Below are positions 8,219 through 64,000 of a stretch of DNA of 64,000 nt, piece after piece. Source of the DNA: Isoetes taiwanensis (Eukaryota > Streptophyta > Lycopodiopsida > Isoetales > Isoetaceae); the NCBI GenBank assembly GCA_021234155.1, contig JAJEKV010000011.1, positions 11,217,045-11,281,044 on the forward strand, read 5' to 3'. The position numbers and the translations under genes are program-made. Within the stretch, counting starts at the first letter, position 1. Each line of letters starts with the position of its first letter. A model generated the notes under the pieces. That model was not told where the DNA came from and did not search any database. It worked only from the letters and a program-made list of their open reading frames with translations.

Positions 8219-8384
8219 TGACATATTTAATAAAATTTGGACTTATTCAAATCTAATAGATATCCTTCAAGGATGTCATGATAAGATTATATGTATTTTT
8301 AACTCAAGGCCCGATTTCTAGGATTTCTAGCCTGGAAGGATATCTATTAGATTTGAATAAGTCCAAATTTTATTAAATATGTCA
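8219..8384. repeat. Perfect 50 bp inverted repeat with a 66 bp loop
   Basis: Bases 8219-8268 are an exact reverse complement of 8335-8384; the 66 bases between form a loop. There is no coding. The outer flanks share GTGGT (8212-8216 and 8387-8391), a possible but weak target duplication. It is either a very young foldback/MITE-like insertion or a hairpin-RNA locus. Confidence 0.9.
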
Positions 8385-8793
8385 TGGTGGTCTTATCCCT
8401 GATTCCTATGCCAATAAAATTGGCAACTCAAACATAGTTCAAGTTGGCGCCCTGGGCCCATGTGCATGTCTCCCACACCTATCAAAGGCTAGGATATTGC
8501 CATGTGGGACAATCTTGGCCGTAAATAAGTACATCCATCCAAAAATAGCAACTTTCGAAACGTGGCAGAGAGACAGTACTAGAAGCTTATAGGCAAACGC
8601 CTCAATCTAAGATTAGAATATTTTCAGATAGAACATTGTGGGATGTTCTAGAATGTTGTAGATGCTCATGGTAAGCACCTTAGTCCAAAAATAGAAAGTT
8701 CACAAATAGATGTTGCAAAATATTGGTAGAATATTCTAGATGCTCGTAAATAAACACCTCAATCCAAAAATAGAAAATTTTTAAATAGAATGT

Positions 8794-9704
8794 TCTGGAA
8801 TATTCAAGATGTTCATAGATAATCACTTCAGTCTAAAAATAGAAAGTTTTTTGAAACTTTCAAGGAGTCAATATAGAATGTTGAAATATGGTAGATGCTC
8901 ATGGGTAAGCACCACAGCCTGAAAATAGAAAGTTTTTTAAAAAGTTGGGAAAAAGTAAAAAATAGGATGCTTTTGGAATGTCTCATCCCAGATAGGTGAT
9001 ACTTTGGAATTGGTTGTAAATGTAGTAGGTATGAATAAGCACCTCATGGGCGATTCTTTGGAATTAGTGTATCCTGGACTGTGGTATACATTTGATCACT
9101 TCCTATCCACTATGACGAAGATTTACAGGTTCTGCTAGAACAGGTCAAGCCTGGTTTAGATATTTTGCCATCTTGGCTGCATGAAACAAAGATAAGCTCC
9201 ACTAGTTCAAAGCAGGATTGCCATAACTGCAGTATGTTTTCATCTCTGGAATATTCAAGATGTTCATAGATAATCACTTCAGTCTAAAAATAGAAAGTTT
9301 TTTGAAACTTTCAAGGAGTCAATATAGAATGTTCTGAAATATTGTAGATGCTCATGGGTAAGCACCACAGCCTGAAAATAGAAAGTTTTTTAAAAAGTTG
9401 GGAAAAAAGTAAAAAATAGGATGCTTTTGGAATGTTCCGCTCCGCATAGGTGATACTTTGGAATTGGTTGTAAATGTAGTAGGTATGAATAAGCACCTCA
9501 TGGGCGATTCTTTGGAATTAGTATATCCTGGACTGTGGTATACATTTGATCACTTCCTATCCACTATGACGAAGATTTACAGGTTCTGCTAGAACAGGTC
9601 AAGCCTGGTTTAGATATTTTGCCATCTTGGCTGCATGAAACAAAGGTAAGCTCCACTAGTTCAAAGCAGGATTGCCATAACTGCAGTATGTTTTCATCTC
9701 TGGA
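8794..9704. repeat. Tandem duplication, unit about 451 bp
   Basis: The block beginning at TCTGGAATATTCAAG (8794) is repeated starting at 9245 with about 98% identity and ends near 9700. Upstream (8560-8790) are shorter degenerate copies of its first part, with repeated AAAATAGAAAGTTTTT and AGATGCTCAT. A diverged third copy of its second half is at 14145-14340. No coding recognised. Confidence 0.85.
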
Positions 9705-10040
9705 CCGTGACACAAAAAAGGTATGATCAACTTTTTGCTCTAGCTTGTGAATTGTCTACTTTACAAAAGATTCTTGATCTCGCTCTTTCTGCAGGTTAAA
9801 ATGATCATGACTTATTTAAGAGCAAACAATATGTTCACAGCCTACAATGAAATAAGTTGTTGTAGATTGATGGTTGGTGTTAATATCTTACTGTTAAATA
9901 TATGCAATTACAAACAAACAAAGTTTACTCTTCTTATCTACAACTCAACCTGGACTCGATGGTTCGTTGTGCCTTTTGTCCCAAAGGTAGTTGTTAAGGT
10001 TTCTGGCTAACCTAAATTGCCCTGTCCAATTGTGGTCTTC
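9537..10040. repeat. Segmental repeat X, copy 1
   Basis: Matches 14145-14620 (copy 2) over about 480 bp with scattered substitutions and indels, for example the shared GATTGATGGTTGGTGTTAAT. It overlaps the second unit of the 451 bp tandem repeat. No gene recognised. Confidence 0.75.
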
Positions 10041-22680: not shown

Positions 22681-25600
22681 TTAGCCTAGAACGCCATCAA
22701 AGTCAAAATTACTCATAAGAGTGAAACGTTCACTTATCTCTTCTCTCTCTTTAAAAATATCTCTAAGATATGAATATAAGGTATGCGTAGGTACAACATC
22801 AAAGAGTTCACCAAGTGTTGATGCTGTAATATCATACTGGCGCCTAACTTGTTCATATGCTGAGCAGTTCAAGAATGTGTGCTCTTCATCTTCAATTGCT
22901 GGATCTAAGCAACTCGGACAAAACCGCTCATTGCGAGGTGTATTATTCCACCTTCCAGTCTCAATACGCAAATGATGAGACGACAATCTGATTTGAGAGA
23001 TAAACATACGTTTTTCTTCGCTAATACATGAGAGTAGATAAGACTGCTCTTTATACTCCGATAGATCATTTATCTCAGCAAGGTAAAACTTGGTTTTCAC
23101 GTCAGATTCATCACTTATTTGCCACAATTTGCGAATTGCTCGTGCAGCCACATAATCATGTATTTCTTCAAATTTTTGGGATACTGGCCAAGCATCATCA
23201 TCCAGCCATTTTCTTGCCCATCTCATAACATCAGCATACCACCCTTTTGTGCTATGCACAAGGGCCTGATATGGTAACCGATCTGTGCCCATGGCTTGGA
23301 CTCGATTCACATATGAGATGGTTCTGCATAATGCCTCTACTTCAAGAGGTAATAAACCCGTTTCAACCAGCAGCATGCAGTATGGAGTTTGCACCTTAAC
23401 TCCCAATTCAGCTATTAAAAATCTTTTTTGTATCTTCTCTATGTCTCTCCATCCCTTTAAAGACAAACCTAGCCCCCAAACTGGACTTCCATAAATGACA
23501 ACTGTTTTTACTTGTATCCCAAAAAGAAGTTTTCTTAATCGCCAATGCTCAAAATTGTTGACCTTACACTGATACATCATACTATAAAATGCCCTGAAAC
23601 CACCTGATACACGCTTTTGGGCTGCCAATGTCCACTTATAATTATTCGTCATTTCTACTCCCAAATATTTATACTTCGTTACTTGTTCAAGTCGAACATC
23701 ACCTGCATATAAGATTGTGCTATCCCTGCCTCCTAGCACCATTATCTTTGACTTTTCAGGATTGATCTTCATGCTTTTTTGTTCACAAAAGGCACATAAC
23801 ACATCAAGATGACGTTGTAACCCAGCTGCAGTCCTTGAAACTAATACAATGTTATCAGCAAAAATCAAGAGCTGCAAGACATACCTCCCCAATTGGGCTC
23901 CTGGCCCCCCAAGCCGCGCCATCCAGCTTTCTAGTTCATCTGTGAACAATCCAAAAAGAGTCGGAGAGCAAGGGCAACCTTGCTTTACTCCAATCGTATT
24001 CTGCACTTTTTCTGGTCCTGTAAATGGGAAGGATAGTTCTACTAGTACTCTGTCATACAAGCATGCAACTGCATGATAGAGTTCTTTTGGGATTTCAAGC
24101 ATTTCCAACCTGTGGGCAAGATCTGTTCTCTTAACTGTATCAAAGGCTTTTGTGAGATCTATAAAGGCAAGAAATCTTTTATTACCAGCACCCTTTGCAC
24201 CTTCAGACAAAACTCGCAGTGTAACTAAATGATCAAGAGTGGAATGGTCAGTTCTAAAACCTGCCTGGCAAACAGCATGAATATCTTTTTTGTCTGCCCA
24301 CGAAGATAATTTTCATTCAAGCATAGATGCACAACTTTGCAAACACATTACTCACCAAAATGGTCCGATAGTTTTGCACATCTTCTTTGTTACCAGCCTT
24401 ATGGATAGGTACGACCCTGTTTAAGCATCATGCATCAGGAAACCCATTTTTCAGTGCATCATTACATAGATCCGCAAGGAATTCATGCAGCTTAGATCCT
24501 CCGCATTTCAAGAGTTCTATGGACAACCCATTTGAGTCACATGCTCTGCCATTTGCCATGGTCTTAAGCGCATCAATCACATCTGTGCTAGTAAAAAGCA
24601 ACGAGTTTCTACGATGAAATGAAAAACCTTGTTCACTCGGAGTCTGATATAAGGCTTTCACCAATCCAAATAGATCATCTCTTTATATAGTGGCTGTCTC
24701 CATATGTTTTTTAAGCCTATTGAAAAATCTTTTTGGATCTATCTCCTGCCCTGTCATTACCATATCTTGGTGATTCCTTAACCATGCCCTTTTCTTTCTT
24801 TTCACTATGTTTCTGTAAACTTTCAATTCTTGCACCTCTTTAGTCTGCTTAAACTTCAACTTTGCTTCAAAACATTCTTTGTCAAACCGTTTACTACCTC
24901 GTTTTCTTCTCTCCTGTGGGTTTGAATAGCCAAAAACAGAGGATGCTGCATCCAGTATTAGACTTTGAATATGCATACTTCTGTCTAAGCTATCTTCCCA
25001 TGCTATGTTTTCTAGTTTATGAGTCAACACATCTTAATAATCTGAAGCTAATTTATAGTTCACTCTTAGTTTCGGCTGTGGCAAGACTGGTAGCGTCTCT
25101 TTGCTGCATTTCATATTCAAGCAAATGTGCAAAGGTGCATGATCTGAGTCTGGACTTCTGTCAAGCACCATGAATTCTGTCACAAGCTGTAAACTTTTTG
25201 GTTCACCAATTAGCAAATCCACGGTGCTAGAACCATTTGGCTGGTAGCATGTAAATCCTCTGAAGCTAGGATATCTTTCAAGACCATTGTAGATTATCAT
25301 ATCAAATGATTCACATAGTGTAAGAACATGCCTACCCATCTTATTTTGCATGGTGTCCATGGATGATCGTGGCCATGTGTTCTGTTCAGTCAGTTCATTT
25401 AGCCACAGTTCATTGCCTTCTCCTGACAACAATATGGCTGATTCTCCCGTTCAAATCACCTACTATGAAAGCTGGTCCTTTCTGTTTAAATGTTAATACA
25501 TCAGAGGCTAAATGAAGAAAAGGATCATCTGCACTTAAACCTTTATTTGTGTATATCGTTGCAGGTTGTGGATCTAATGGCGCAAAATATGCAACAGCCA

Positions 25601-26624: not shown

Positions 26625-29600
26625 TTAACTGTTGTTAACTTGCTCTTCCTGGTGAAGAGAAGTTTCATAACTCTGTAAAATATCTGGATACTCAAGAAGC
26701 TGCTGTGCGCTGAACCAAACTGCATCACTGGCTGGGTGAAACTTAAACTTCACTAGATACCTGCGGTATGTTGACCTTCTTGTCTGATGATCCTGGTGAG
26801 CTAGTATTTTCTCTGGCTCTAAAATTTCTTCCTCCCCCTTAATAATTGGAGGATCAGAATTCTCCATTTGTTGCAAGACTTCAGGTGCAATTTCCTTGCC
26901 CTTATAAGGCTTAAGCAAAACCACATTAAAAACAGGATGCAAAGAAGTCCATTTCCCATATAAGCGCAATTTATAAGCATTTTCTCCAACTTTAGTTTCC
27001 ACTTGGAATGGTCCATAGTATCTTAAAGCCAATTTGAGATACTTAAGTCCCATTTTTCTCAATCTTTTCTTATGCAAATGTATCCACACCCAATCTCCAG
27101 GTTTAAACTCAACCTTTCTCATGCGCTTGCTTAATCTTGACTTTAAAGCCAGATGACTTCTTTGAATTCTTTCCTTTACCTGTTCAAGCATTGTAGACAT
27201 GTCCTGTGTCAATGCATCTGAGGCAGGAACTTGATTAGTAAGCTTTGCAATTGGGGTTTCCAAGGACCCACGGTAAACAATCTCAAAAGGGGTTTTACGT
27301 ATGGCTGAATGCACAGTATTATTATAAGCAAATTCCAACAAATAAAGATAATCTTCCCACTGTGTCTTCCGATCGGCCACATATGCTCTCAGCATATCCT
27401 CAATAGTCCTATTCACAACTTCTGATTGACCATCTGTCTGAGGATGGTAAGCAGTAGAGAACTTGAGAGTGGTTCCCAAATTCTTCATCAATGCTGACCA
27501 GAATTTACTACAAAACAGTTTATCTCTATCAGAAATAATAACATTAGGAAGTCCATGCAACCTAAATATCTCTTTAAGAAATATCTTAGCAGCTTGTGGA
27601 GCTGTCATTGTTGCTCTACAAGGAATGAAATGTGCTTGCTTAGAAAGTCTATCAACAACTGTCCAAATTTGATTATTCTTCTGAGGGGAAGTAGGCAAGC
27701 CCTGTATAAAATCCATAGTAATATGCTTCCATGGTTCCAATGGTATGGGCAATGGCTGAGGCACTTTTGCAGATTTACCTGTGGATGACTTAACCTGTTG
27801 ACAAACTGTACATTGCTCTACAAACTTTCGAACATCTCTATCCAACTTAGGCCAAAAGAATCTTCTTTTTATATTGGCTTGTGTAGCTTGCACCCCTCTA
27901 TGTCCACTATAGGGAGGCTCATGAGATTCTTGAAGCATCTGCTGCCTAAATCCCTGAGTCACACATAGGCGATGCTTATAATAAAGGAAGCCACCTACCA
28001 ACTGATAATCAGGAAATTGATAGTTATCTCCATGCATAAGAGCTGCATAAGGTGCTCTAAAAGTATTATCGGCAACATACTGCTCCTTCATTGGATCCAA
28101 ATCATTTTCATGACGAGCAATGGAGATTGCATTCACAAAGGCTCTACTAAGAGCATCGGCTACTCTGTTCTCCTTTAGGGCCTATATTCAGTTTGAATAC
28201 CTTCAAAGTCTTTAATTGTATCAATTAACTTTAAGCGCCGAAAGCATTTATGATATCCCGGGTCTCAATATATTTCAAACTTTCTTTGATCAAACACGGC
28301 AATGAACTTTGTGCCCATAAGATAATGTCTAAGTTTAACGCATGCACTAGAGCAATAAGCTCTTTTTCATAAACACCTTTGTACTTCCTTTTCGTTATCC
28401 TTCAACATTCTATCGACATAAGCAATAGGATGACCATCTTGCACATAAGCCAAAGCACCTATGGCATCTCCACTTGCATCGAACATACAACAAAAAGGTT
28501 TATTCCAATCGAGGCAAAGCTAGAACTGGCTCACTAGCCATTATGGCCTTCAAATCTTGAAAAGCTTTTTCTGCTTGTTCATCCCAAACAAATGTAACAT
28601 TTTTCCTCAAGAACCTATTTAATGGCAACGTAATTCTTGCAAAGTGTTCTACAAATCTTCTGTAATAACTACACAACTGTACAAAGGATCTTAAGCCTTT
28701 AAGATTAGTTGGTCTAGGCCACTGGAGAACTGCTTTGACCTTTTCAGGATCCATCCGAATACCATCCTTGGAAATTACATGTCCAAGATAAACCACTTCA
28801 TTCATGAAAAACCTGCTTTTGGATTCATTAACATACAAGTGATTTTCTCTCAATAATTCAAACACTGCTTGTAAATGCTGCTTATGCTCTTCAATATTCA
28901 TGCTATACACGAGAATATCATCAAAGAACACAACCACACATTTCCCTATTAGAGGTGCCAATATTCTCTGCATGAGTCTGCAAAAAGTAGCAGGAGCATT
29001 AGTCAATCCAAATGGCATAACACGAAATTCATAATGCCCAAAGGTAGTGCGAAATGCAGTTTTTCTTTGATATCCTCTCGTTGGCACCCTTATTTGATGG
29101 TATCCTCGATTTTAAATCAATCTTATTGAAAACACAAGCTCCTCTTAACTCATCAAAAAAGATCATCACTTTCTGGTCTTTGGGAATTTATCTTTCACAG
29201 TGAGTTTGTTGAGAGCTCTATAGTCTACACACATTCTGTATCCCTTATCTTTCTTCTTAATAAGAATTACTGGAGCTCCGAAAGGTGAACAACTAGGTTG
29301 AATAAGTTGCCTATCCAACATCTCATTGATTTGTCTTTCGAGTTCTTCTTTTTCAAAGTGACTTACTCTGTAAGGAGCTCTGCTTGGAGGCTTGGCATCA
29401 GGTACCAAATTAATTGCATGATCTTCTGGTCGTGCAGGAGGAAGATCTAATGTCTCTTCATCTTTAAAAATATTATCATACTGTCTTAGAAAATTATATA
29501 ATTCAGAAGGCACATCATTTGGAGGCGGTGACTCTCTCAAATAAACAAAGTAAGCTTGAACAGCTGATTTCATTGATTTCTTTATCTCAGTGTGAGATAA

Positions 29601-29866
29601 TAAAGGAGTACATCGTTCAAGTACATTGGCATGAATTTTAATTGACTTCCCATCAACAAAGATAGTCATGCACTTATTCCTGTAATCTGGTATTGCTCCA
29701 TACTGAATCCTCCATCCCATGCCAAGTATGATATCCACTGAACCCAAAGGAGCTACCATCATAGCTCTTGTCTCTTTGTACTTTCCTATCTGGATTGGTG
29801 CACAGACAAATTTATGACAAGATTCATGTGATCCATTCATTCCCCGTACTAATCGCGGTAAAGATT
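26625..29866 (-). pseudogene. Ty3 pol: protease end, RT, RNase H, integrase, chromodomain
   Basis: Pieces in order: an aspartic-protease end and linker (29166-29840), RT start YRMCVDYRALNKLTVKDKFP (about 29180-29240), RT core MPFGLTNAPATF and VVFFDDILVYS (YxDD as FFDD, about 28930), RNase H (about 28200-28500, fragmentary), and integrase (26625-28136, 503 codons open) with an HHCC zinc site ending CTVCQQVK, the core aspartates (MDFIQGLP, ISDRDKLF), the catalytic Glu region HPQTDGQSE, and a chromodomain-like PEKILAHQ...YLVKFKFHPASDAVW tail. Breaks at about 29090-29166 and 28140-28500 prevent a continuous frame; several sit where CTG would be expected. Confidence 0.88.
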
Positions 29867-29889
29867 AGGTAAATCGAACATAGGAAGCT

Positions 29890-31400
29890 TCAACTTCTCC
29901 ACCAACTGCTAGAAACGAAATCATGTGTGGAACCATCGTCAAGAAGTATAACAGCTTCCCTGTTCAAAACATAACCATTCACCTTGAACAACCAAAAGCT
30001 CTGAACTATTGGAGTTCCACTGCTAAGATGCTGCATATAGGAAATTTGCAATTTCCCCTTTTCTTCAGCTGTCTTCTTAGCTCGTTCCTCACTGGCTTTA
30101 GAACATTCTGGTTGTTCATCAACAAAAGCAACATGTGCCCTTGGATTTGGTTTAGAAGGAGTACTCTTAATTGCAGCTTCGTGATTAGATTGCTCTCTTG
30201 ACCTGTCAACCTGTGGGCATTGAGATTTAAAATGAGGTCCTCCACAAATAAAGCAACCTTGTTGAGGCCCTTCTGACTTCACATTCTTCTCGTCAGGTTT
30301 CCATGGTCTTCTAGGGGTTCTGCTTCTTTGTTGACCTGATCTATCATTTTTCTTCCAATTCGATTTTCCCCTTTTTCCAAACTTACGCTCCCTGTCATCA
30401 GGCTTGAATCTCTTCCGAAATGATTTACTTTCTTCATCCCTGGATGCATACAAACTATCCCATATATTGTACTTGCGAAGCTTAGGATTTAATCTTCGCT
30501 CTGCTGCATTGGCCTTGCGAACTGCTTCCTCCAGATCTGCAGGTTCTACAAAATCCAACTCTGCAAAGATGTCTTCTTTCAAGCCACTAATATACTTTCG
30601 AAGCAACTCTTTCTCATCCACAGTCTGAACTCCCAGGTTAGTGACTTGTGATGCCAAGAAATTGAACTTCGTAGTGTACTTGCTTACAGTCTCTTGGTCA
30701 GATTGCTTCAAAATATCCCATTCTCTCCTAAGCACCTGATGATAGTTAGAAGGTAAATACTTGGCTTCAAAAGCTCGCCCAAAAGGGACCAAGTGTCTAT
30801 CCTCTACGCCATAGTTCTTCTTCCATGCCACCAATTTCGAAGCTTCCTCATCCAACCATACATCCATGGCATGCATCTTTCCCTGCTCATCGCATTAACT
30901 TCGCTCAAAGTGCCTTTCAAAGATGCTAAGAAAACCGGTGACCTTGGAAGGTTTCACATTCACACCTCCCTTAAAGAAAGGCAAATCCGCCTTCTCCAAC
31001 CACTTTGCCAAACCTAGGGTACCTCTCTGCAAAGATCTTGCACAAGAGTTACTGTGTAATGCTTCTTCCACGGGCGGCAAGGCGGCTGCCTCGATAAGGC
31101 TCGGTGAGGGCAAGGGAGGCATCTGCAGATTCGCCCCGCAACATGATTCCAAGAAGCTATAGCCCTGTTTTTCTTGAAGATGGAATAGGGTAACCAAGGC
31201 CTTCAAAGAAGAGTTGCCGATCTGGATAGATTCAATTTGGACCAATCGGCATCGCAACCCTAGTTGCCGTGCTACTCCAGCAACTCGCTGCAATGGTATT
31301 CCAAAAAGAGAGCATGATCAAAGGGCTCTGAGGTATCATGAAGTGGCAGCTGCTGCTGGCTCAGATTGGCATACTGGGCATCAAAGTTTGGGTTTCCCAT
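29890..31400 (-). pseudogene. Ty3 gag-protease, copy 1, frameshifted
   Basis: Same protein as the open copy at 54335-55834, but broken near 30780-30860 and 30890-31270. It retains the gag core (EWDILKQSDQETVSKYTTKF), the CX2CX3HX4C zinc knuckle (CFICGGPHFKSQC, about 30225-30260) and the protease start LLDDGSTHDF. Differences from the second copy cluster at CTG/CAG. Confidence 0.85.
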
Positions 31401-42659: not shown

Positions 42660-44015
42660 TCAATCCTCTTCGTCTGATAACACCTCAGGAAGGTTGCCTA
42701 GAATCTTCTCACTATCAGCTTCAGACAGTGTGTAAGCTACTTGGTCTCCTCTCAATCTATATTTTGCTTGTGGCATATCAATTCTTATTGCACAAATCTG
42801 GTTGGCATAAACAATGGCTTTTGAAGCATTGGACCATAAAATGTAGCTTGTACGTGATCTCAGAACTTTTTGATAGTAAATACCCTCTAGAAGTTCTTCT
42901 CCTTCATAGAACCATTGCTCATTAACTTCAAAATCAGTTTTCACCAGATGTTTCTCCTTTGTGCACAATACTATCCAAAATAACGAGCCCTTTTCATCGT
43001 GCTTTGGAGTTGCGACAGCGAAATTATCTCCTTCTCTTAACAAGTCACTCAACACTACTACACGTTTAGAGAAATGGGCTCGTTCCAATCTACGCAACTC
43101 ATATTCATCGATTATAACCTTTTTGGGCACAATAACCACAAGTTCCCAATCATCTACGTAATCCTTGTTCAAGCATTTCTCCCATTGTGCATCAAGGCAA
43201 TATGCATAGAAACAAGATAGATGTCTCATATGCAATTGAGTAGGACAAGCTAAATTAGCGACATGGACAAAATTGATGCTCCTAGTGTCTTTTACAGTTC
43301 TTGCAGCCCAATGGTTTTTCCTGTCCACATTCTCCACTTTCCAAAACCACCTGCTCACCAATTTCTTCTTCATACTTGAAGATGGAGCAGCGATTTAGAA
43401 TTAAAATGATAAACTTGCCTCTTGAAGGAGAATACTAGATTAGCTACGACCTTATTTCTTTTGAGACTTTAATTGGCATTGCTCATGGCTTTTTGGATCA
43501 AGACATTTTTCTCTTTTTTTCTCCTTTTTCTTTGTCTTCTCTTTTTCTAAGTTTCTTCCCTGGTTGTCCTCTTTCTCTTGCCATTGCAATCTCTACGCTC
43601 TCATTCTTCCATGATTGTCCAAATCTTACTGCAATTGTCCCTGCACCAAAAAAAAGAAAGAAAGAAAAAAAAAAGAGTATAAACATTATTAAGTTTAAAG
43701 GGACAGAAATTGGAGCACCTTGGGTAATGCTTTTCTTTGAACAAAAAAATGGATCAATGAGAATGTGCCTACCACGAGTTTCCTGCAACAACTGGTGGCA
43801 GATCTTACCTGCTGCAAGAAATGTCAATAGATTAGTAAACTTTGCAAAAATTCAAGCAAAAATGGTCAATTACCTTCGAAATAACCACCAAACAAGCTTC
43901 CAGTCGAAAGAATTAAGAGAACCAAATGGACCTTCTTCGGCCTTGCTAGAACGAAGCCAATCCTCTAGATTTCTTGGAGGAAAAATCAAGAAAATTTTGA
44001 ATTTTCCTCGGTAGG
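42660..44015 (-). CDS. Unrecognised protein with a Cys-containing YVxxW motif, copy 1
   Basis: The main exon is 42660-43373: MKKKLVSRWFWKVENV, then TQLHMRHLSCFYAYCLDAQW, EKCLNKDYVDDWELVV, then FAVATPKHDEKGSLFWIVL and an acidic end LPEVLSDEED. The 'LSCF..C....C.N..YV..W' pattern recalls C-terminal parts of multicopy, transposon-associated proteins of animals and plants, from memory only. Upstream minus frames at about 43500-43660 (GTIAVRFGQSWKNES, basic end) and 43860-44015 (FLIFPPRNLEDWLRSSKAEE, followed by a GTAATT donor) look like exons. The FWI segment resembles one in the neighbouring DUF7869-like gene (RPFWIARI), so the two may be related. Confidence 0.45.
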
Positions 44016-45196: not shown

Positions 45197-45306
45197 TCAA
45201 ACGCTATATTTCTCTTCTAGTAATGCAGCTTCATGGATTGCAGCCAAGCAATTCACAGACATGACATCCCTGTAACAAGGGGGAATAGCAGCTTCTAGAA
45301 GGTTAA
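45197..45306 (-). pseudogene. Receptor-like kinase C-terminal tail, beyond the inserted element
   Basis: Minus strand reads NLLEAAIPPCYRDVMSVNC...LLEEKYSV then a stop at 45197. Lectin receptor kinases continue after kinase subdomain XI with a '..NLLEGEAPxPP'-like tail, so this could be the end of the gene whose kinase part is at 54181-54310, separated by the 8.9 kb element. The link is inference. Confidence 0.4.
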
Positions 45307-45339
45307 AAGGTGACCCAGCAAACGCACTAATGACCTGTG
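45307..45339 (+). repeat. Left terminal inverted repeat
   Basis: AAGGTGACCC then AGCAAACGCACTAATGACC and TGTG; reverse complement of 54148-54180 except C/T at one position. Confidence 0.9.
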
Positions 45340-45861
45340 TTTGCACCACAAAAAGGAATCTTTCAAAGATTCCCTAAAAAAAACCTAAAATTTGCCACTT
45401 TTGGGGGGTCAATTGAAAAAACAACCCTCAATTTTGATTTGCGACACCCCTTTTTTGGTCCAAAATTACAAATTTTTTGTTGTTTTGTGAATTCTAGACA
45501 CCCAAACAAGGTGTAAAATTGGAGTCACCTTTTAGGAAGATCTAGGCAATACAAGAAAACTAACAAAAATTAAAGAACCATTAGAATCTTGACAAAAAAT
45601 AAAAGCAAGACAAGCAAAACTTGGCATCTATCTATTTGTTATTACTCAAGAAGAACCACAAAGGTGCTATCTTGGCGCAAGATAGGCAATAGAAAAACTT
45701 ACAAGACATAACTAACATGTCTGATAGCATTTGGCACTTATACAAGACATGGAAAAACATAAAAAAAACTTGGAAGAAGCTATGCGGGCTTGGCAAAGGC
45801 CTTTAACATGTACAAAAAACTCTAGCCAAAACTAGGAGGTAACGATGTGCCCACATTTAGA

Positions 45862-48800
45862 TTATACAAGAAGTTTACGACCTTTGAGAAGAGCAGGATT
45901 AGGAATGTCGTTATACTCGTCAACTCCTTCAGACTCGTCACCACTGTCCTCGTTGCCACTCTCCTCATTGTCACTTGAAGTGGTCGAAGAGTTAACCGTG
46001 AACCTTGTCCTCATCACGGGAAGCTTAATTCAACTATCCTCGCAGAAAGACTTCAGTAAGTTAACTGTTGTCGCACGTAGCCTGTTATCAACCTTGAGTG
46101 TAAAATCATAAGCCAACACTTGAGTTTCGTTTCAGGTCCGTGATTGTCCATGTGATTCTTATTCATCGTTTTCCGGCCCTTCTTGAAAGGAATTATCACA
46201 GGATCATACCGACCAACAAAAGGATCTGTATCCTTAGTGGCGTACGAGTGAACTTTCACTATTGAAGGGAGATTGTCTTTGTGTACAATATCTTTAATCC
46301 TTGCAATCCAGAAAGGACGCTCTTCGTCATCATCAGTCGAAGGTACAGCTATAAGCATCCCCTTACTCAAATCTGCAAGTTTTTCTGGAGTTTGGCCTTG
46401 GTTCTTTTTCAAGGCACGTCTACTTCCGAGGTACATTACACGATCAGGTTCCTTGTTGACTTCAGTACTGCAGAACACGGAACCCTTTGCAATTCCTTGG
46501 TCTGCCTCAACAAGGGGATGGACTTGACTACCAGGCCAGCAAAAAGCAACTTCCAGGGAGATGCGAAAAGAAACCTCATCACTGAAGTACTTAAAACTTG
46601 ACCTTATACTTTTCTCCATGCTGGTGAGTGAGACGAAGGGATTTTTGTTGTTCTTTTCTGTGTAGTCTATGGCACTTTTCAGTGGCTGCTGAATAGCCCT
46701 TCTCATTACCTTAGTTTCAGGAACATATTTTAAATATTGTAGGCCTGCTTCAGGCTGCCAAGTTTGGGAGGTGACAAAGTACTTCCCTTGAAGATGTGCT
46801 TTACCCTCCTTGAGAAAAAACTTTACACGATGTTGAAATGTCAAATTATTCAACTTATGGATAGCAGGACCTGTGTCACCATGGCACTGGAAAACAAACT
46901 CACGAAAATCAAAAGTCTCGCTAAGCACTTCGACAAGTGGAGTTGGATTGTAAGCTTGCTCAATCACACTGCACAAGGAGTGTAGACAAAATGCTTTTTT
47001 CCTGCGCAACCGCACAGAAAATCTGCTGAAGATTTGGTCTATCTGATCATGGGTGTGGCCCACAAGTAAGAAACCAACCTTGACCTTTCAAAAGATACCC
47101 AGCTCGACCAGCATTGCGTAATAAGCAAATAAAACTTGGTTTTTGTTTTCTCTAGTAGTATTGTCTAACTGTATGTACAACACTGGAGGCAGCTTCTCCT
47201 TTGCTAGCAAAATCTTATTTAGTATTGTCACCGTGAGGTTAGGATCGCTGTGTATATTTGGATACGTCAAAAATACTCTACACTGTACAACACCATGAAA
47301 GATCATAGCCCCAACCAGATGAAGCCTCAAAAAATTGGATTCATCTAAGTCCTTTGGAACATTTACAAAATGGGGAAGTGACGTCTTCTTTTGGTCCATC
47401 CGCCTAGTCTCACACCACGGACATGTATTCGAAAGTGGCCTCTCCAAAGATTTCTTTCTATGTTTTGCTAGCTTCTTTCTCTCCAAGGCTTGAGCCTCTT
47501 TGTGAACTTGCAACTCTTGAGTTATCGATCCGCAATTAAGGACATTAGTCGATTACCTTGAAGCAATAGTAAGGCTCCGCAGAATCGCAACTAAGCTTTT
47601 TGTAGTCGCGTGCTATGCGCCAAGATAGGCAAAAGCTTGTCATTACCTTGAAGCAATAGTAAGGCTCCCATGTGAATCGCAACTAAGCTTTTTGTAGCAG
47701 TGCTATGCGACATAGGCAAAGCTTGTCAAGACTTTAAAGAAATAGTAAGGCTCCCGTAAAGGCGCAACTAAGCTTTTGTAGCGATTGCTATCGCGCATAG
47801 ATAGGAGCTTTTATATAGGGGAAGGGGCGGCTACAAGATTGAAGAGACCCTCTTTTGGCGAAGCGCTACAAGATTGAAAAAGACGCTATCGCACATAGAC
47901 AAACTCACAAGACTAAATAGCCGTGCTATGCCCATAAAGACAATGTCTCTAGCGGGTGCTATCGAAAAGGGATTAGGCGAAAGGGACGTACTTTTTTCCT
48001 AGAATATCCTTTGCCATTGATCATTTTTCTTTTTAATGTGGAGAGCAGCTAGTACACACCGAAAATGTGCCTCTTGAATCCTAACAAGATTAAATTCTTG
48101 CTTCCACAACCTCAAGAAGTAGGAATAAGATATGAACTTCTGACTTGAACACTGAAAAAGATCCTTGTACATGTTGTAGACTTGCTTCTTAGTAATACTG
48201 TCTGTCAGATGATATACAGGACTGTTTGGAAGTCGCTCACAGTTGGAGTCAAAGAAGCCTACCAGCCAAGCTTTTGCTTCTAGGCAATACACCGACAATT
48301 TTTTTTTGGTGTGAATAGTCATCAATGCACGGATTTCTGTCTAACCTCTTTTGCACTCTTGACATGCGACGACTTCCAATGGCATGTATTCTTTTAAAAG
48401 CAAGTTGGCACACTGTGTTGCTCGAAACATAGTATGAAAAATTGTCTCCAACTTCAGGCCTTACACTGTATGCCAAGTACAACTCTTGATCACCTTTCGA
48501 CATTGACAAAAACCGTTGTCTTATGTGCCTTAAAGACGAAAATGTAAAGGCCTGTAAACATTTTTTTCGACAAACAATTCAAGCCTCCTCGGCTTTCTCA
48601 TGTAAGATAGTCCCATCAATCGCCTTTCAGATACTTGATTCTAAAAGCTTTTACTATGGGATCCCTCTTAAATCTTTTCGCACTGCTGTATGGGTTTTTC
48701 ACTGCAGGACTTTTATTCTGAGCAGTGTCTGTGGTAGGTCTTTCAGGAGTACAAAACTGCACGTCTTCAAACACGGGGTCATCAACCTTGTCGCCCGCAA

Positions 48801-49290
48801 CTGAAGTGCCAGGTCTGTCAGCAAATAATGTTCTCGACTTTCTCTTCAAAACTTGAAGGTCTTCCTCAGAAGCCCTTTGTGTTAAAGAAGGGCCAGCAGC
48901 ACGCAGCACATGTCTCTCCGCAGAATCTACAATATAGGGCAACGATACTTGTAGTTCCTGGAGAGGTGAAGGAGTATCAAAAATAGAGTGAGTACGCTGA
49001 GTAGGGGAAGAGGAGAAGATACTTCGTGATTGTGGCGGGGGGGAGGGTGTTTTAAAAACGGACGAATGTTGTAAAACGTGTTTTGGAGATGGAGTTTGAA
49101 AAGAGGTAGACACATGCAATAGGTGTAAAGGGGAGGGAGACGGTGTGGAGGAGGTAGCATCCGGGAGAAGCGTATCGAAGTATTCTTCATCGTCACCTAC
49201 TGGTGTGGGTGTGTTGTAACGACCACGAGGCAATATTGCAACATTAACCGGAGGAGTTGAAGTAAAAACGTCTTTGTTGTTGCCCTCCAT
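45862..49290 (-). pseudogene. DUF7869-like protein, candidate transposase of the element
   Basis: Order on the minus strand: a Ser/Pro/Thr-rich disordered N-terminus (48616-49290, many TPSP/SPSP), VCRKKCLQAF (about 48570), SSNTVCQLAFKRIHAIGSRR (about 48380), AWLVGFFDSN...YFLRLWKQEF (48060-48260), an intron with tandem repeats (about 47530-47990), MDQKKTSLPHF, LYIQLDNTTRENKN (about 47150) and VGHTHDQIDQIFSRFS (about 47020-47065), then RPFWIARI (about 46300) and an acidic C-terminus ending at 45862. The LDN...NKN and GHTH..ID signatures are those I recall for Pfam DUF7869, an uncharacterised multicopy eukaryotic family. Breaks: TGA at 47088-47090 exactly between GIF and KVKV, shifts at an A9 run (about 48300), near 46130, and a stop near 48585. 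Some may be sequence errors. Confidence 0.72.
47550..47815 (-). repeat. Three degenerate tandem units of about 90 bp in an intron
   Basis: Each unit carries AATAGTAAGGCTCC, GCAACTAAGCTTT(TT)GTAG and then a palindrome variant (GCTATGCGCCAAGATAGG at 47612, GCTATGCGACATAGG at 47701, GCTATCGCGCATAG at 47787). Two more palindromes follow at 47885 and 47924. The units differ by small garbled changes. Confidence 0.75.
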
Positions 49291-49931
49291 TGCTGCACAA
49301 GGAAGAGTGACTTGTCTCAGCCATTAAACCCTCTCCCTTCAAACCTGCACGTCTACATGCCCATACGCGCATAGAAAAGTAGTACAAATGTAATGTACAC
49401 TAATTGCCCATGCGCGCATAGACAGAAAAAACAAATATGTCTATGTGCGCATGGACAAGAAATACTTCAATGCGAAAAGTAGATGCCACACAACCATGAA
49501 ACATTAACAAAATATTAGACATTATCTCCCCAAGGCAATGCCTGAAACCAAAACTATTATGTATATGCAAGAATCCATAGACAAAAAGCAAACTACGTAA
49601 TCCAATATAAATAGGAAAACATATGGAGGCATTTGCACATACAGACGATTCTCCAAGGCGCTTGACCTCCGCCTAGAATATTGCTCTTCCGTTTCGAACT
49701 GTAGCATCTCCATAGGTTTCTGCATAGCGTTGCCAAACATGTCAGGTGGAAGGTACGTAAACATCTCAGCCAGTAGCAGTTTACATTACTTGTTAGAACT
49801 TTTAGACCAAATGTTGCCCATTTAGGGACTTTTGCTTAGAGTCAAAGATAGTTGATTTTAAGCTTTTTGGTCATCCTGTTTGCCGAATTTCTTCTTCTCG
49901 CATAAGCATTTAGGGTTTTTTTCTTTCCTTG

Positions 49932-50181
49932 GCTATGCGCACATAGGCCTTTTCCTTCTAATGTCTATGCGCGCATAGGCATATTGTTTTTTCTCTTAGT
50001 ATTGTCTATGCGCGCATAGGCAACCACCCTTTTACCTGCTCTTGCCTATGCGCACATAGGCACCAACCTTTTTAGCAACCCTTGTCTATGCGCGCATAGC
50101 ACTTACCTTTTATCCTGCCATTGTCTATGCGCCATAGATAAAGGCGTAGAATTTTACTTGCTATTGTCTATGCGCGCATAG
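49932..50181. promoter_or_regulatory. Array of seven CTATGCGCGCATAG palindromes between the divergent genes
   Basis: Copies near 49932, 49963, 50004, 50044, 50084, 50123 and 50166, about 30-43 bp apart (three to four helical turns), usually as TTGTCTATGCGCGCATAGGC. Spacer sequences are unrelated. Three more flank the other gene's start (49360, 49408, 49441). The position and regular spacing suggest protein-binding sites in a shared promoter; the part just before 50254 could also be an intron (CTTGTAG acceptor). Confidence 0.75.
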
Positions 50182-50253
50182 GCATTTCCATTGTTAACTG
50201 CTTGTGCTTGTATATTTTCTCTCGTCTTCTAATATTCTTTTTACGTCTTGTAG

Positions 50254-53200
50254 AACCAAGAAAAATCCTCAAGCGTGCTCCTCCCACAAAGCGCCCAAGA
50301 AGAGAAAGCCGACAAAAGGACAAGAACCAACCTAAGGATGATGCACGCCCAGCACACCTTTTATGATCACCGGGGCGGTTCCTTTTTCTCGTAAGGACCA
50401 ACAGTGGCTAATTGTAAGAGAAACTGGTGAGCCTGCTACGGCGCATTATTTGTACCTCTACATTTGTGATCGTTTTGGTAAGGAACCCCAAGACTTGACA
50501 GGCTTCAAAAGATGTGGCGGGGTTGACGATACTGAAGCTCTTCGGCATGTTTCACATTAATCGCACCACATCAACTAAGGGTGCGAACATGTTTACTCGG
50601 TGGACCCCCATTTCTTCAAGCTCGGTCTGTCGTCTCCGAAGACATGCGAGGGGTTACATCCGGGCCAGAATGAAAGCAAAATTGTAAAAGGTATTGTCTA
50701 TCTTGCCGCATAGCTTAAGAAACTTTAATTTTCTTTTTGCGCTTATGGAATGTTTTTTTGCAGGATCTTGTCACCATTTTGAAGGACCTGCTTTTGTGCA
50801 AAGATCCTATATTAACTTCTAGTGCCTCTGGCACTAAGTTATTGAAAGATGCAATGCCTTCGGCATTAAAACTTACCCTTCCCACAGTCACGGGGAACGT
50901 TTTGCAAGTGATGGAAGATGAGGAAGAGGAGGAAGAAGAGGTGGAAGAGGAGGAAGTAGAGGAGGAAGAGAAGGAGCCACCCAAAAAAAAAAGGTAAAAG
51001 AAATTACTACAAGGCTGGCCTTGTTACAACCACATCACCTCCGCTCACAAAAGCTGCTAGGAAGGCCTTAAAGCAGGTTTTGCCATCAGGACCGGGCACG
51101 AAAATAGCAAGCAAGGAGAAGGATATGGCATCGCCGTCTAAGAAGCTCGAGGAAATCGAGCTGAGATGTGATCCCGGCATTATGCATCTCTCGGTAGACT
51201 GTGTAAAGCTTGCACCAAAGGATGAGCAAGGTGTTAGACAACTGCAAGTCCAAAAAATTTATAGTGGCCACTTAACAGCACTTAAAGAAAGAATCGAGGC
51301 AAAGCCGAATGCAAAAGAATGACTCCTCATATTTGTATAGTTGATCCCGCCCAATCTGCAATGATAAGGAGCTATTCGTTAAGGAAGAGGGCGAGAACTA
51401 TAGATACTATGTTTTTGGGGGCACCCACGGTTTCAAAGCGAGAAGGCGGTTGTACAAAGGAAACAAAAGAACACTGCTTTTCACAAATCTTTGCCTTTGT
51501 TTACATGGGTGTTACTGACTCAGAAGCCAAGCTGCTTGCAATGAGCCACAACATGGACAATGAGTATCGGATGAGTATGAGCTTCACGGATAAAATTAAA
51601 TTCATGCACAAGGAATATGAACTCTTTCGTTCAGAGCACCAAGGTGAGAAAGATATTAAGGATGACCAGGCTCTGTACCTAGCCCTAAAAGAACAGTGCG
51701 CTACTGAGTGCTGCCTAACTTACTCCACCTCAGATGCCAGAGCATCCCTCGCTAAGTCACGATAATTATTTTCGGTTAGCTTTTACGTCATGGGCGTGTA
51801 AGTACTTTCTCGACCTTGGCCTTTGGCTATGCCCGCATGGCTCTTAAATATTTTAACATGCTTGTTGTTTTCTAAAATAGGTGCAGGAGCTACAAGAAAG
51901 AATTTTTGACATGTACTCGAGGGCACTCTAAAACTAAAGGCAAGGCAGCGGATTCCAAGAGGAAAAAACGGATCCCCAAAGCAAAAGGATATGGGCATAA
52001 TGGCTGGAAATGAAATGCAAGGCCTTAAAAACATTGATAAAGTTTGTGAGGGTCCGCAAAAGGTAGTTGATAAACAGTTTACTTTGGAAGAGATGCAGAG
52101 AGAATTTAAACAGTAAGCCTACATTACACACTCATATTTTTTCCAATATTTGTTATTAACCTCATACAACGTTTGCAGCCAGAAAGATTGTACACTCTGT
52201 CAACAACAGTTAATGGTTCACCTCAACTGCGACAACTGGGAGAAGGTGCGGGAATTATACCCTACATGGTCCTCAGACGAAAAAAATTAATCAATATCGA
52301 CTAACTTTACCAACTGGGTATGTCATTTGTTTCTCCTTCCTGCTGCTTGAGTTAAGGTATTTGTTTTTGTACCTGTGCTATGCGTGCATAGCATAGGAGT
52401 TAGGGACCTTGTGTTAGTGCTATGCGCGCATAGCACTACCACAAGTCCCTCACTCCTCCTATGCTATGCGCATATCACAGGAGTGAGGGAGCTGTCGTTT
52501 TGTTTCTTACAAATTGTTTTCGGCTTTCAGAAAAAGAAAGACCCCATGCCACCTGGATTTTTAAACATGGTCCAGGCTAGCTAAGGAGGAGCGGTCGAAG
52601 CTGAAAAAGTCTCAAGAAGCTGAGCAGAGTTTGGTGCCTTCAGAGTTTGAAAGATTTGATATGTTTGGCCAAAATTGTTTGTATCAGGTGTATCGTGGAA
52701 ATTGTGTCAAACTTGACCACACTTTGAAACCTGGCAACTATTCCTTGTGCATAGCTGACATACCTTACGGGTTTAAGTTACCTGACAGCCGTGGTGACGA
52801 CTCCCCATTTACTTACGCCGAGTTTGATTCTTTTTTGGGGAGGTTTGTTAAGATAAACATTGTTCCGCTCTGGAGGATTGTCGTCTTCCACTCCACTAAC
52901 CAGGCCAGTATGGTGCAAGCGGCTATGAAGACCCACTACAAGGCTGGTTACAAGCCTGCCATATGGCAAGTGTCTAGTTGTTTTCTCCATGCGGGCATAG
53001 CGAATACAAAATTGTTTCCTTTCTTTGCAGGTTAAAGACGAATATTAGGGGAGGTGGTGGTGCTAGACTTGTCAACGTGTGGGAGCAGATTCATATAGGC
53101 TACCATAGCGTATCTGGGCAGAGAAGCCAAATGCACGATAATACTACTGGAATGGATTTTCGCAATGCTTTTAAATGCCCAGCAGTCTTACAAAAAGCGG

Positions 53201-53694
53201 CAGACCCAGTTCACCAGGGATGGATTGTGAATCCCTATCAGAAGCCTCAGAGACTTATTAACACTCTTCTGGAGATGTTCTCGCAACCTGGAGATTGGGT
53301 CGTTGACGCTTTTTCAGGATCTGGCACCACGTTGGCTTGTGCACTACAGAAGGGCCGCAACTGCGTAGCCATTGACGTCGACGTGGATGCAGTAGCGTAC
53401 ATCAAATCACGAAGTCGGTTCCTTACCCGCGGCTTGCCGCTAAAAACAGGGAACTTGGGATCAAGGATAAGGATGGTGTTCCGCCTTCTCATGTTGAGCT
53501 GTGCCTCCTCTTCACGGGAACACGGCGATCGTTTGACTATGTTGAGTTGATTCCGTCGAAGATCCAATTAAGGTCGCAGAGGATAAAAGTCCGTCCGAGT
53601 CTGAGGACAAAATACAAGCTACTAATCCTAAGTCTCCCCAAGGTTCTGAATCAGATGAGGAAGTACCTGCAAAGGATTGTCCCCTAGATATTTA
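50254..53694 (+). CDS. Beta-class DNA amino-methyltransferase (N4-C or N6-A type), spliced
   Basis: The C-terminal half is a bacterial-type N6_N4_Mtase domain in beta order: motif IV SLCIADIPYGF (52745-52775), then IWRIV-like strands, NPYQKPQRLINTLLEMF (about 53231-53280), then the SAM-binding DAFSGSGTT (53305-53331) and NCVAIDVDVDAVAY. Motif IV is DIPY rather than DPPY or SPPY. N-terminal parts: a basic stretch (KRAPPTKRPRRESRQKDK), RKDQQWLIVRETGEP...LYICDRFG (about 50380-50480), an acidic run (MEDEEEEEEEVEEEE, about 50910), and CTLCQQQ. Introns modelled: 50684-50763, 52113-52178, 52318-52530 and 52970-53037, plus one near 51798-51880. Frame breaks at an A10 run (50990), near 51318, 51750 and 53430-53560 lie in homopolymers or at CTG/CAG sites. 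Target base and activity unknown. Introns and a land-plant setting indicate a long-domesticated eukaryotic gene. Confidence 0.8.
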
Positions 53695-53754
53695 AAAATC
53701 TGTGCAAAAATTTAAACATTTTATTCTATGTGCCCTATTTTAAATATAATATAT

Positions 53755-54068
53755 TTCATTAATGACTGTCATGTCTATGCACGCATAGGCTTTTCTCTTT
53801 TCAGTTGCATTTTCTTGCTCCAAAAAATGTGTTTCTTACTTTGTCTAAAAACAAGAAAAGCTGCTTGTCTCCGAAATGGACTTTTTTTAGGCTCACTAAG
53901 TTGTTTTAAATAAATTATATTTTAATAATGACTGTCATGTCTATGCGCGCATAGGCTTTTCTCTTTTCAGTTGCATTTTGGTGCTCCAAAAAGTGTGTTT
54001 CTTACTTTGTCTAAAAACAAGAAAACCTGCTTGTCTTCGAAAGGTGGACTTTTTTAGGCTCACTGCGT
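53755..54068 (+). repeat. Two tandem units of about 167 bp with a palindrome each
   Basis: 53755-53905 and 53922-54068 share AATGACTGTCATGTCTATGC, CTTTTCTCTTTTCAGTTGCA and AGGCTCACT. The palindromes are at 53773 and 53938. They lie between the methyltransferase stop and the right terminal repeat. Confidence 0.85.
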
Positions 54069-54147
54069 TTTTCTGGTCTTGTTCTTTTTAAAAAATGTCT
54101 AAAATGCAGAATTTACGTGTTTTTGAAAAAGGAATCTGCAATTGCAC

Positions 54148-54180
54148 CACAGGTCATTAGTGCGTTTGCTAGGTCACCTT
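54148..54180 (-). repeat. Right terminal inverted repeat
   Basis: Reads inward as AAGGTGACCT then AGCAAACGCACTAATGACC. Just inside both ends the words TTGCACCACA and AAAAAGGAATCT also recur, but in direct orientation. Confidence 0.9.
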
Positions 54181-54310
54181 GTCTTCTTCAACTGGCCTCC
54201 ATAGCCGGCTTTTGCATCAGGTTTTGCAAGTGAGCAGGCAATGCCAAGGACAAGCACAATTCTCATTTCTTCTTCGTCGTACAGCTCTTGAAGCTTTGAA
54301 TCTGCAGCCT
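54181..54310 (-). pseudogene. L-type lectin receptor kinase fragment (kinase subdomain XI)
   Basis: Minus strand reads AADSKLQELYDEEEMRIVLV then LGIACSLAKPDAKA, matching the DPRL..xYDEEEMxRVLxLGLxCSHPDPxARP region near the end of lectin receptor kinase domains. It is cut on one side by the TIR element (at 54180) and on the other by the tandem-duplication junction (54310/54311). Confidence 0.7.
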
Positions 54311-61750: not shown

Positions 61751-62410
61751 CTATCGCAGGGCGATTGTGTAAGCTACTTGGTCTCCTCTCAATCTATATT
61801 TTGCTTGTGGCATATCAATTCTTATTGCACAAATCTGGTTGGCATAAACAATGGCTTTTGAAGCATTGGACCATAAAATGTAGCTTGTACGTGATCTCAG
61901 AACTTTTTGATAGTAAATACCCTCTAGAAGTTCTTCTCCTTCATAGAACCATTGCTCATTAACTTCAAAATCAGTTTTCACCAGATGTTTCTCCTTTGTG
62001 CACAATACTATCCAAAATAACGAGCCCTTTTCATCGTGCTTTGGAGTTGCGACAGCGAAATTATCTCCTTCTCTTAACAAGTCACTCAACACTACTACAC
62101 GTTTAGAGAAATGGGCTCGTTCCAATCTACGCAACTCATATTCATCGATTATAACCTTTTTGGGCACAATAACCACAAGTTCCCAATCATCTACGTAATC
62201 CTTGTTCAAGCATTTCTCCCATTGTGCATCAAGGCAATATGCATAGAAACAAGATAGATGTCTCATATGCAATTGAGTAGGACAAGCTAAATTAGCGACA
62301 TGGACAAAATTGATGCTCCTAGTGTCTTTTACAGTTCTTGCAGCCCAATGGTTTTTCCTGTCCACATTCTCCACTTTCCAAAACCACCTGCTCACCAATT
62401 TCTTCTTCAT
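61751..62410 (-). CDS. Unrecognised protein with a Cys-containing YVxxW motif, copy 2
   Basis: Identical to 42660-43373 for about 215 residues and then diverges where copy 1 has CAGCTTCAGACAG and this copy has CGCAGGGCGA (61755-61767), which removes the acidic C-terminus. This is likely a sequence error. Confidence 0.45.
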   Translation of the reverse strand: MKKKLVSRWFWKVENVDRKNHWAARTVKDTRSINFVHVANLACPTQLHMRHLSCFYAYCLDAQWEKCLNKDYVDDWELVVIVPKKVIIDEYELRRLERAHFSKRVVVLSDLLREGDNFAVATPKHDEKGSLFWIVLCTKEKHLVKTDFEVNEQWFYEGEELLEGIYYQKVLRSRTSYILWSNASKAIVYANQICAIRIDMPQAKYRLRGDQVAYTIALR

Positions 62411-64000
62411 ACTTGAAGATGGAGCAGCGATTTAGAATTAAAATGATAAACTTGCCTCTTGAAGGAGAATACTAGATTAGCTACGACCTTATTTCTTTTG
62501 AGACTTTAATTGGCATTGCTCATGGCTTTTTGGATCAAGACATTTTTCTCTTTTTTTCTCCTTTTTCTTTGTCTTCTCTTTTTCTAAGTTTCTTCCCTGG
62601 TTGTCCTCTTTCTCTTGCCATTGCAATCTCTACGCTCTCATTCTTCCATGATTGTCCAAATCTTACTGCAATTGTCCCTGCACCAAAAAAAAGAAAGAAA
62701 GAAAAAAAAAAGAGTATAAACATTATTAAGTTTAAAGGGACAGAAATTGGAGCACCTTGGGTAATGCTTTTCTTTGAACAAAAAAATGGATCAATGAGAA
62801 TGTGCCTACCACGAAGTTTCTGCAACAACTGGTGGCAGATCTTACCTGTTGCAAGAAATGTCAATAGATTAGTAAACTTTGCAAAAATTCAAGCAAAAAT
62901 GGTCAATTACCTTCGAAATAACCACCAAACAAGCTTCCAGTCGAAAGAATTAAGAGAACCAAATGGACCTTCTTCGGCCTTGCTAGAACGAAGCCAATCC
63001 TCTAGATTTCTTGGAGGAAAAATCAAGAAAATTTTGAATTTTCCTCGGTAGGCGGCATTCACTATTTTTGGGCCTGATTTTCAAACTAACTTTCGAGCTA
63101 TTTTGGAGGGGACAGGGGGACAAACTAATCGAGCCACTATACCATCTTGAGCCCTTCAATGTGTTTTCCTGGTTAAAACCCTCAGGCTACTTAAAGCAAC
63201 CAATCTTTATGCAAAATTCACAAAAATATCAAACACTTTAGGATCCCTAAAGGAAAATGAGACAGTTGCATTCATATCTGCATATCTCGAGCCATATTGA
63301 TCATTTTCACATACTTTTTTAAGGAGAAATCAGATACCATATAGTGGATCTGAGATAACTAACAAAATTGGTTTTAAATTGGACACAAAATTTGGCATAT
63401 GCACTTTCCCATGATAGAAAAAGATATGATGATCACGTGTTATTTAACAAATTTGGTTGTCTTTAAAATGAATATCTAGCATTATAACAGGGGTTTTTTT
63501 TTGTGATTTTATACGCTTTTTGGCATGGTTTTCATATGATTTCATGGGCGTATTGCACGAGGCATACTAATCAGTACATCTAGAATGCATCAAGTTTTTG
63601 CATGCAATTTCTGCAATTTTTTTTTTCATCCTCCTCAATGGTTAAGATCAGAGGGCTTACAAAGAAAGCCCTCTTTTAATTCAAGAAGATCCAAGGGTTT
63701 ATAATGAAAGCCCTTTTCTCAAGCCGGAATTAGGGCACGGGTTAGGGTTTGTGGAATCAATGATGGCAACTGCTTACTTGGAGACATCCATAGCCGATGG
63801 AATAGGGCGATCTCACGGCCATGGGTTGTGCTAAAGGGAATCGGTTTTTGATAGAACGCTGTTGCCTGATAGGATGCTGTTGCCTGATGTGTTACATGGA
63901 CAACAATGATTCTGGGGTACTCTGAGTATGGAGACGGCAATGAGGAAAGCGTTCCCACAGGATGTCAAGAATGTATCTTTCAGCGGCTGGATGCAAATTG
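62411..64000. other. Second copy of 43374-44970, no further gene recognised
   Basis: Collinear repeat of the exon-like stretches at 43500-44015 and the non-coding DNA up to 44970. Differences are concentrated at 63724-63960. Confidence 0.6.

Follow-up and report, generated by a model that had tools for sequence, protein, structure and literature searches.

A 64,000-nucleotide stretch of the genome of the vascular plant Isoetes taiwanensis (GCA_021234155.1, contig JAJEKV010000011.1, positions 11,217,045 to 11,281,044; hereafter, the window) carries an 8.9-kb element in which two divergent genes lie between terminal inverted repeats. It is near certain that this element is a terminal-inverted-repeat DNA transposon of the autonomous type, present in the window as a decayed copy. 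One gene encodes a DUF7869 protein that is predicted to be the transposase, and we infer that the other encodes a beta-class amino-methyltransferase of bacterial or phage origin. The two genes have stayed paired in two diverged families or more, and each of the two families examined has its own arrayed palindrome. The best explanation for this arrangement, which we hold with about as much doubt as belief, is a DUF7869 transposon whose methyltransferase marks the element's own DNA, perhaps at the palindromes.

Copies, ends, and target duplications

A previous reading of the window, made from its letters alone (the sequence-only reading), proposed a transposon family pairing these two genes between 33-bp inverted repeats with one mismatch. 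The repeats are present at 45307-45339 and 54148-54180. The bounds drawn from them need a small correction: comparison of flanks among copies sets the true ends 3 bp farther outward, where other copies of the window element's family (family 1) start with AAC and close with GTT (AACAAGG..CCTTGTT). In the window copy the outermost bases are TAA on the left and GTC on the right.

We searched the host genome (1,658,258,908 bases in 1,110 contigs) with the 33-bp end and with both proteins, as that reading had suggested, and found many dispersed copies. With one position free, the end occurs 77 times, and with up to three mismatches 493 times; the reversed control gave 0 in both cases. Because 77 occurrences in 1.66 Gb compare with none for the control, the inverted ends are not due to chance. 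Copies were defined by pairing ends from the genome match lists and then taking the sequence. Target duplications, also looked for at the suggestion of the sequence-only reading, are 4 bp long, vary in sequence, are mostly AT-rich, and flank 16 of 18 paired family-1 copies (15 of 17 tabulated copies and a 21.7-kb copy at C907:7622347-7644037, which has the duplication TATG and large internal insertions). The two copies that lack one are the window copy, with flanks AGGT and TTCT, and L028.

Eight of 18 loci (L020-L037) align with the window element over its whole length and share both ends and both genes with it, which is the kind of copy whose absence would have spoken against the proposed family (L020, L021, L024, L028, L029, L030, L033, and L037). 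Four of the 18 (L020-L023) had been preselected for similarity on the methyltransferase side; the other 14 were taken in list order, and six of these are full length. The remaining loci are truncated, run past the fetched stretch, or are non-autonomous forms. Full and partial copies differ from one another by about 5-15% (a tandem duplicate set aside), and the longest open frame in the 12 copies listed is at most 361 amino acids; the family-1 copies examined are therefore old. The window copy itself is dead and decayed. A close DUF7869 match on contig C952 (93% identity, a 515-amino-acid open frame with no stop) suggests that less decayed members of the family exist. The tandem duplicate belongs to a segmental duplication (42660-44014 and 61751-63051, offset by about 19 kb) that takes in the window element; in a blastn alignment the two element copies share 95.8% identity.

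The inactivity of the window copy, the 4-bp duplications, the palindromes, and the second family described below were absent from the sequence-only reading. The alternative that two old genes merely cluster by chance between unrelated repeats, with no transposon at all, draws on the missing target duplication and broken frames of the window copy; dispersed copies with the same ends, the same genes, and 4-bp duplications refute it, and we give it a negligible probability. The same copies and duplications, together with the co-location described below, rule out two small genes lying merely beside repeats.

Two genes kept together in diverged families

The sequence-only reading recognized a DUF7869 gene running divergently from the methyltransferase gene and took its product for a possible transposase; the results agree with both points. 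The minus-strand frame 46053-47552 is divided by an in-frame TGA at 47088-47090, and each half has a match to DUF7869 (PF25273; E values of 2.5e-20 and 7.7e-23). No other Pfam family exceeded its cut-off in the scanned transposase frames. The domain also occurs in named proteins of a liverwort, a green alga, a lancelet, and a mussel. The RNase H-like core that the sequence-only reading proposed to look for is present in the predicted structure (pLDDT [predicted local distance difference test] of 92.9) as a DDD core, with Asp at the second and third predicted catalytic positions conserved in 58 of 58 aligned sequences, and 50 of 50 structural matches, among the matches listed, are DDE/D recombinases. 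Foldseek without realignment returned nothing at an E value of 0.001 or better: in one run the best match was acetyl-CoA carboxylase at 0.024, followed by UvrC and Argonaute, and in the other it was an Argonaute MID-PIWI at 0.002. PIWI and UvrC are likewise RNase H-like. Together with the multicopy elements and their 4-bp duplications, the predicted core and its conservation suggest that the DUF7869 protein is the DDD transposase of the element, which would give a likely function to a domain that Pfam lists only as of unknown function.

The beta-class N6_N4 methyltransferase domain of the sequence-only reading was likewise borne out. N6_N4_Mtase (PF01555) matches the plus-strand frame 52978-53550 with an E value of 5.7e-16. 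Matches to this profile score 59.6, 64, and 66.4 bits against a curated cut-off of 26.7, and the motifs stand in the beta-class order, with IV ahead of I. Among phage profiles the top match is phrog_67 (DNA methyltransferase, 1e-25), and the best PDB sequence matches, which cover just the motif-I part, are RsrI, CcrM, and MboIIA. Phage proteins reach 23-25% identity (best 20 of 89 records). A 263-amino-acid domain query had four matches in the protein collection, one of them a distant bacterial-type protein; the close relatives there are three proteins on short contigs, 68-88% identical to the family-2 exon. Region 240-870 of a 943-amino-acid model had no match at an E value of 0.01 or better among proteins 0.55-1.75 times its length, and no methyltransferase homolog was confirmed in viral contigs (query P0002).

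Motif IV reads DIPY in the window and DLPY in family 2, compared with the consensus (D/N/S)PP(Y/F/W); its Asp and PY are retained in both, as is motif I (FSGSGTT). DPPY is found in bacterial N6-adenine enzymes and SPPY in most N4-cytosine enzymes (PMC8885841). The Asp in motif IV therefore makes N6-adenine the likelier target, as judged from the motif, than N4-cytosine. The full protein has more conserved regions upstream, one of which weakly resembles ParB in the 943-amino-acid model (PF20188 at 0.004, below its cut-off; the ParB-like phrog_723 at 0.26); no ParB is among its seven PDB matches at E values up to 10. A GGNH..KA motif is visible by eye, but with matches under the cut-offs a ParB domain serves as a lead only. 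No chromodomain is among the Pfam matches of the model at E values up to 1.

Searching the genome with the methyltransferase exon gave 2,455 first-look candidates, of which 150 were scored. Among the 151 genome matches, many have 53-60% identity and no internal stop. At least 46 of the 150 lie within 25 kb of a DUF7869 match (128 listed), 45 of the 46 pairs in divergent order, where 0.58 co-locations would be expected if matches were evenly spread; this count is a lower bound among the matches listed. Two loci picked from these matches for their open frames, L038 and L039, are elements of 8,161 and 8,437 bp with terminal repeats AACAAAGTTGCG.. and 4-bp target duplications (ATCA and TAGA; two of two). 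They carry the same divergent gene pair, with some frame breaks in each, and define family 2. The coding parts of the two families align by translation, nucleotide similarity is confined to four stretches within the genes, and identity between the transposase cores is 69% across 179 aligned codons. As a blind test for a methyltransferase beside another DUF7869 match we took locus L041. It has the family-2 palindrome, an uninterrupted DUF7869 frame of 987 amino acids, and the methyltransferase gene's N-terminal part. Neither blastn nor tblastx matched the next 4.5 kb (5422-9901) to L038 or L039, the methyltransferase domain was not seen, and the two frames scanned gave no Pfam match.

Selection was estimated by the Nei-Gojobori method with our own script. 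The last methyltransferase exon, which holds motif I, has a ratio of nonsynonymous to synonymous substitution rates (dN/dS) of 0.08 between L038 and L039 (dS = 0.64), showing purifying selection on the methyltransferase in family 2. Two family-1 pairs gave 0.33 and 0.47, as expected since these copies have decayed. Between families dS is saturated (pN/pS, the ratio of the proportions of such differences, 0.24-0.42), as it is between L041 and L038 in the N-terminal part of the methyltransferase gene (46% identity). For the transposase, L041 and L038 gave dN/dS values of 0.04 in the core (dS = 1.23) and 0.16 in the N-terminal part, so this gene too is under purifying selection.

Family-specific palindromes and their possible role

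Allowing up to two mismatches, the palindrome CTATGCGCGCATAG occurs 15 times in the window, each time within the element; 100 shuffles gave a mean of 0.04. Across 17 elements totalling 118,432 bases, the same tolerance gives 195 copies, and the 76,504 bases of flanking sequence, of which the window supplies 55,120, give none. The exact motif occurs 1,551 times in the genome and the reversed control 0 times. The motif is missing from family 2 (0 of 3 loci), which has a palindrome of its own, GTGTATTCCGGAATACAC, found (up to three mismatches) 9 times in L038, 10 in L039, and 5 in L041; its exact genome count is 2,585 (control, 0), and none of the family-1 copies checked, 13 full or partial and 8 non-autonomous, contains it. 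Both palindromes are arrayed between the genes and in the putative introns, with a commonest spacing of 40-42 bp; family 1 has subterminal sites as well.

We also examined eight non-autonomous family-1 copies of 3.2-8.0 kb (L009-L014, L026, and L036). In all eight, both genes are undetectable and the palindromes are kept, with 8-13 sites each. Because the palindrome persists in copies without genes, its distribution argues that it is a cis-acting part of the family's spread, as opposed to a by-product of the genes. One of these copies, the 6.8-kb L010, contains a fragment of a pentatricopeptide repeat (PPR) gene at 3344-3937 on the minus strand (PF13041, 3.6e-51).

That the element marks its own DNA is a plausible reading, given that its methyltransferase is under selection and that each family has a palindrome of its own, and it is the one we propose. 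The predicted DUF7869 transposase would cut and paste the element through 4-bp staggered joins, and the methyltransferase would methylate the element's DNA at or near the palindromes, which would serve as the address for the mark on its own copies. Methylation at a palindrome would be symmetric and could be maintained. The mark would act as a license for the element: it could shield the promoter from silencing by the host, or it could control transposition. In such a system the palindromes would act in cis, and the methyltransferase protein, the transposase, or both would act in trans. A more specific form of this proposal, which we advance tentatively, is a eukaryotic DUF7869 superfamily (DDD transposase, AACAA ends, and 4-bp duplications) with a marking system of its own. 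In a vascular plant, a captured bacterial amino-methyltransferase would write N6-methyladenine or N4-methylcytosine (6mA/4mC) on family-specific palindrome arrays that co-evolve with it, so that every family, along with its non-autonomous satellites, would bear a private epigenetic tag.

Dam methylation ties transposition to replication in some bacterial insertion sequences, and the methyltransferase could likewise only tune transposition, for example through such a link, with the palindromes acting as transposase binding sites like the subterminal repeats found elsewhere. The outermost right-hand site in family 1 does lie 241-245 bp from the right end in 10 of 17 copies and 227-231 bp from it, measured to the site's start, in five more that are reversed in the locus, sites survive in every non-autonomous copy, as a cis requirement for transposition would demand, and the commonest spacing fits repeated protein binding. 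Less easily explained are the dense arrays between the genes and in the putative introns, distant from the ends, the lack of any family-2 site (up to three mismatches) within 1.9 kb of either end of two complete copies, and motifs that are wholly unlike between families despite such similar transposase cores. On balance, we consider this account somewhat unlikely.

It is less probable still, in our view, that the protein uses its methyltransferase fold to bind specific DNA sequences and counter silencing, catalyzing little or nothing, in the manner of VANC from the VANDAL elements of Arabidopsis. VANC, a transposon protein, binds such arrays with loss of host DNA methylation, and its targets have the same layout (family specific, in introns, and upstream; PMC5735166). 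The unusual motif IV would suit such a factor. Against it stand motif I and, within motif IV, the Asp and PY, which both the window copy and family 2 retain, and the dN/dS of 0.08 in the exon with motif I. That the methyltransferase is a captured passenger with no role in the element, like the PPR fragment, is very unlikely: the family does carry captured sequence, but the same divergent order beside the transposase recurs in two diverged families, under purifying selection.

Known systems and surrounding sequence

Transposons with base-modifying genes are already known (PMC3627910, PMC12730594, and PMC5890265). Giant-virus mariners are likewise DNA transposons encoding a transposase and a methyltransferase (PMC3627910), but they are described from viruses, whereas the present element is from a plant, and they have TA duplications, an endonuclease as a third gene, and Methyltransf_26 or C5-cytosine methylase domains. 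Fungal TET/JBP transposons of several cut-and-paste superfamilies (among them hAT, IS3EU, Harbinger, EnSpm, and Plavaka) also carry a DNA-base-modifying enzyme, but these are dioxygenases acting on methylcytosine, and the available part of that source describes no amino-methyltransferase (PMC12730594). Transposon-borne DNA methyltransferases with proposed self-methylation are reported from Symbiodinium and Klebsormidium, in retrotransposons and with C5-cytosine enzymes (PMC5890265). N4CMT of bdelloid rotifers is, as here, a bacterial-type amino-methyltransferase in a eukaryote (PMC8885841), but it is a host gene with a chromodomain and SPPY that takes part in silencing transposons; DIPY/DLPY and the absence of a chromodomain match in the model set the transposon-borne enzyme apart from it.

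Plant VANDAL elements share the family-specific arrays of short motifs in introns and upstream (PMC5735166); they are of MuDR type, VANC is not described as a methyltransferase in the available part of that paper, and the motifs of the present element, in which no MuDR-type transposase was found in the frames scanned, are perfect palindromes. Membership in Tc1/mariner (TA) and Zisupton (KDZ; 8 bp, PMC12730594) is rejected because duplication length differs from the varied 4 bp seen here. Sola2 has inverted repeats and 4-bp AT-rich target duplications, as here (PMC3627910). In the open-licence literature searched, which takes in neither Repbase nor most subscription papers, we found no account of DUF7869 acting as a transposase and none of an amino-methyltransferase carried by a plant transposon; with Sola2 sharing the 4-bp duplication, the superfamily could already be named.

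A bacterial-type amino-methyltransferase kept under selection by a plant transposon, with self-contained candidate target sites, makes it testable whether transposons write their own marks other than 5-methylcytosine and whether 6mA/4mC has a role in a vascular plant. Nanopore long reads went into the I. taiwanensis assembly (PMC8566536); provided that their raw signal has been deposited, it could be examined at the 1,551 and 2,585 defined palindromes.

Features of the element are collected in Table 1. Of the N-terminal transposase frames, 47999-48340 and 48249-48578 were assigned by translated similarity to family 2, and 48616-49323 by position and analogy with L038 3305-4582 only.

Table 1. 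Features of the window element (window coordinates)
Feature	Position	Strand	Basis
Whole element, family 1, 8.9 kb, decayed copy	45304..54183	.	end alignment with copies
Left terminal inverted repeat; outer 3 bases TAA (AAC in other copies)	45304..45339	+	
DUF7869 transposase core (predicted) and C-terminal region; TGA at 47088-47090; first catalytic position non-Asp	46053..47552	-	PF25273
GHTHDQIDQ, third predicted catalytic acid; last Asp in 58/58	47034..47060	-	
LDN, second predicted catalytic Asp, 58/58 aligned sequences	47160..47168	-	
MDQKK, remainder of beta-1 motif (relatives' consensus IDGMDQKK)	47385..47399	-	
Transposase gene N-terminal frames 47999-48340, 48249-48578, 48616-49323; exon borders tentative	47999..49323	-	
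Palindrome cluster between divergent genes: 3 sites at 49361-49454, 6 sites at 49933-50181	49361..50181	.	
Upstream methyltransferase exon, frameshifted here; family-2 counterpart contains the weakly ParB-like region	50960..51765	+	
Palindromes in inferred methyltransferase introns: 51827, 52378, 52420, 52987	51827..53000	.	introns from splice-like borders
Methyltransferase exon, motif IV DIPY (52757-52768); border inferred	52565..52970	+	
Methyltransferase exon, motif I FSGSGTT (53311-53331), PF01555; border inferred	53035..53550	+	
Right subterminal palindromes, 53775 and 53941; last starts 242 bp from right end	53775..53954	.	
Right terminal inverted repeat; outer bases GTC (GTT in other copies)	54148..54183	-	

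Beside the element, a 244-amino-acid frame at 42660-43394 on the minus strand has no Pfam match at E values up to 0.1; by eye it resembles the C-terminal part of the DUF7869 protein and is perhaps a relic of another element. Near the right end, a minus-strand region at 54335-55903 matches Pfam Retrotrans_gag, and its frames read like a long terminal repeat (LTR) retrotransposon. Farther away, all on the minus strand, are a reverse transcriptase (22681-24312), fragments of a host-like Sec7-domain gene (1-1432), and frames that by eye resemble LTR-retrotransposon gag and integrase (26625-30894).

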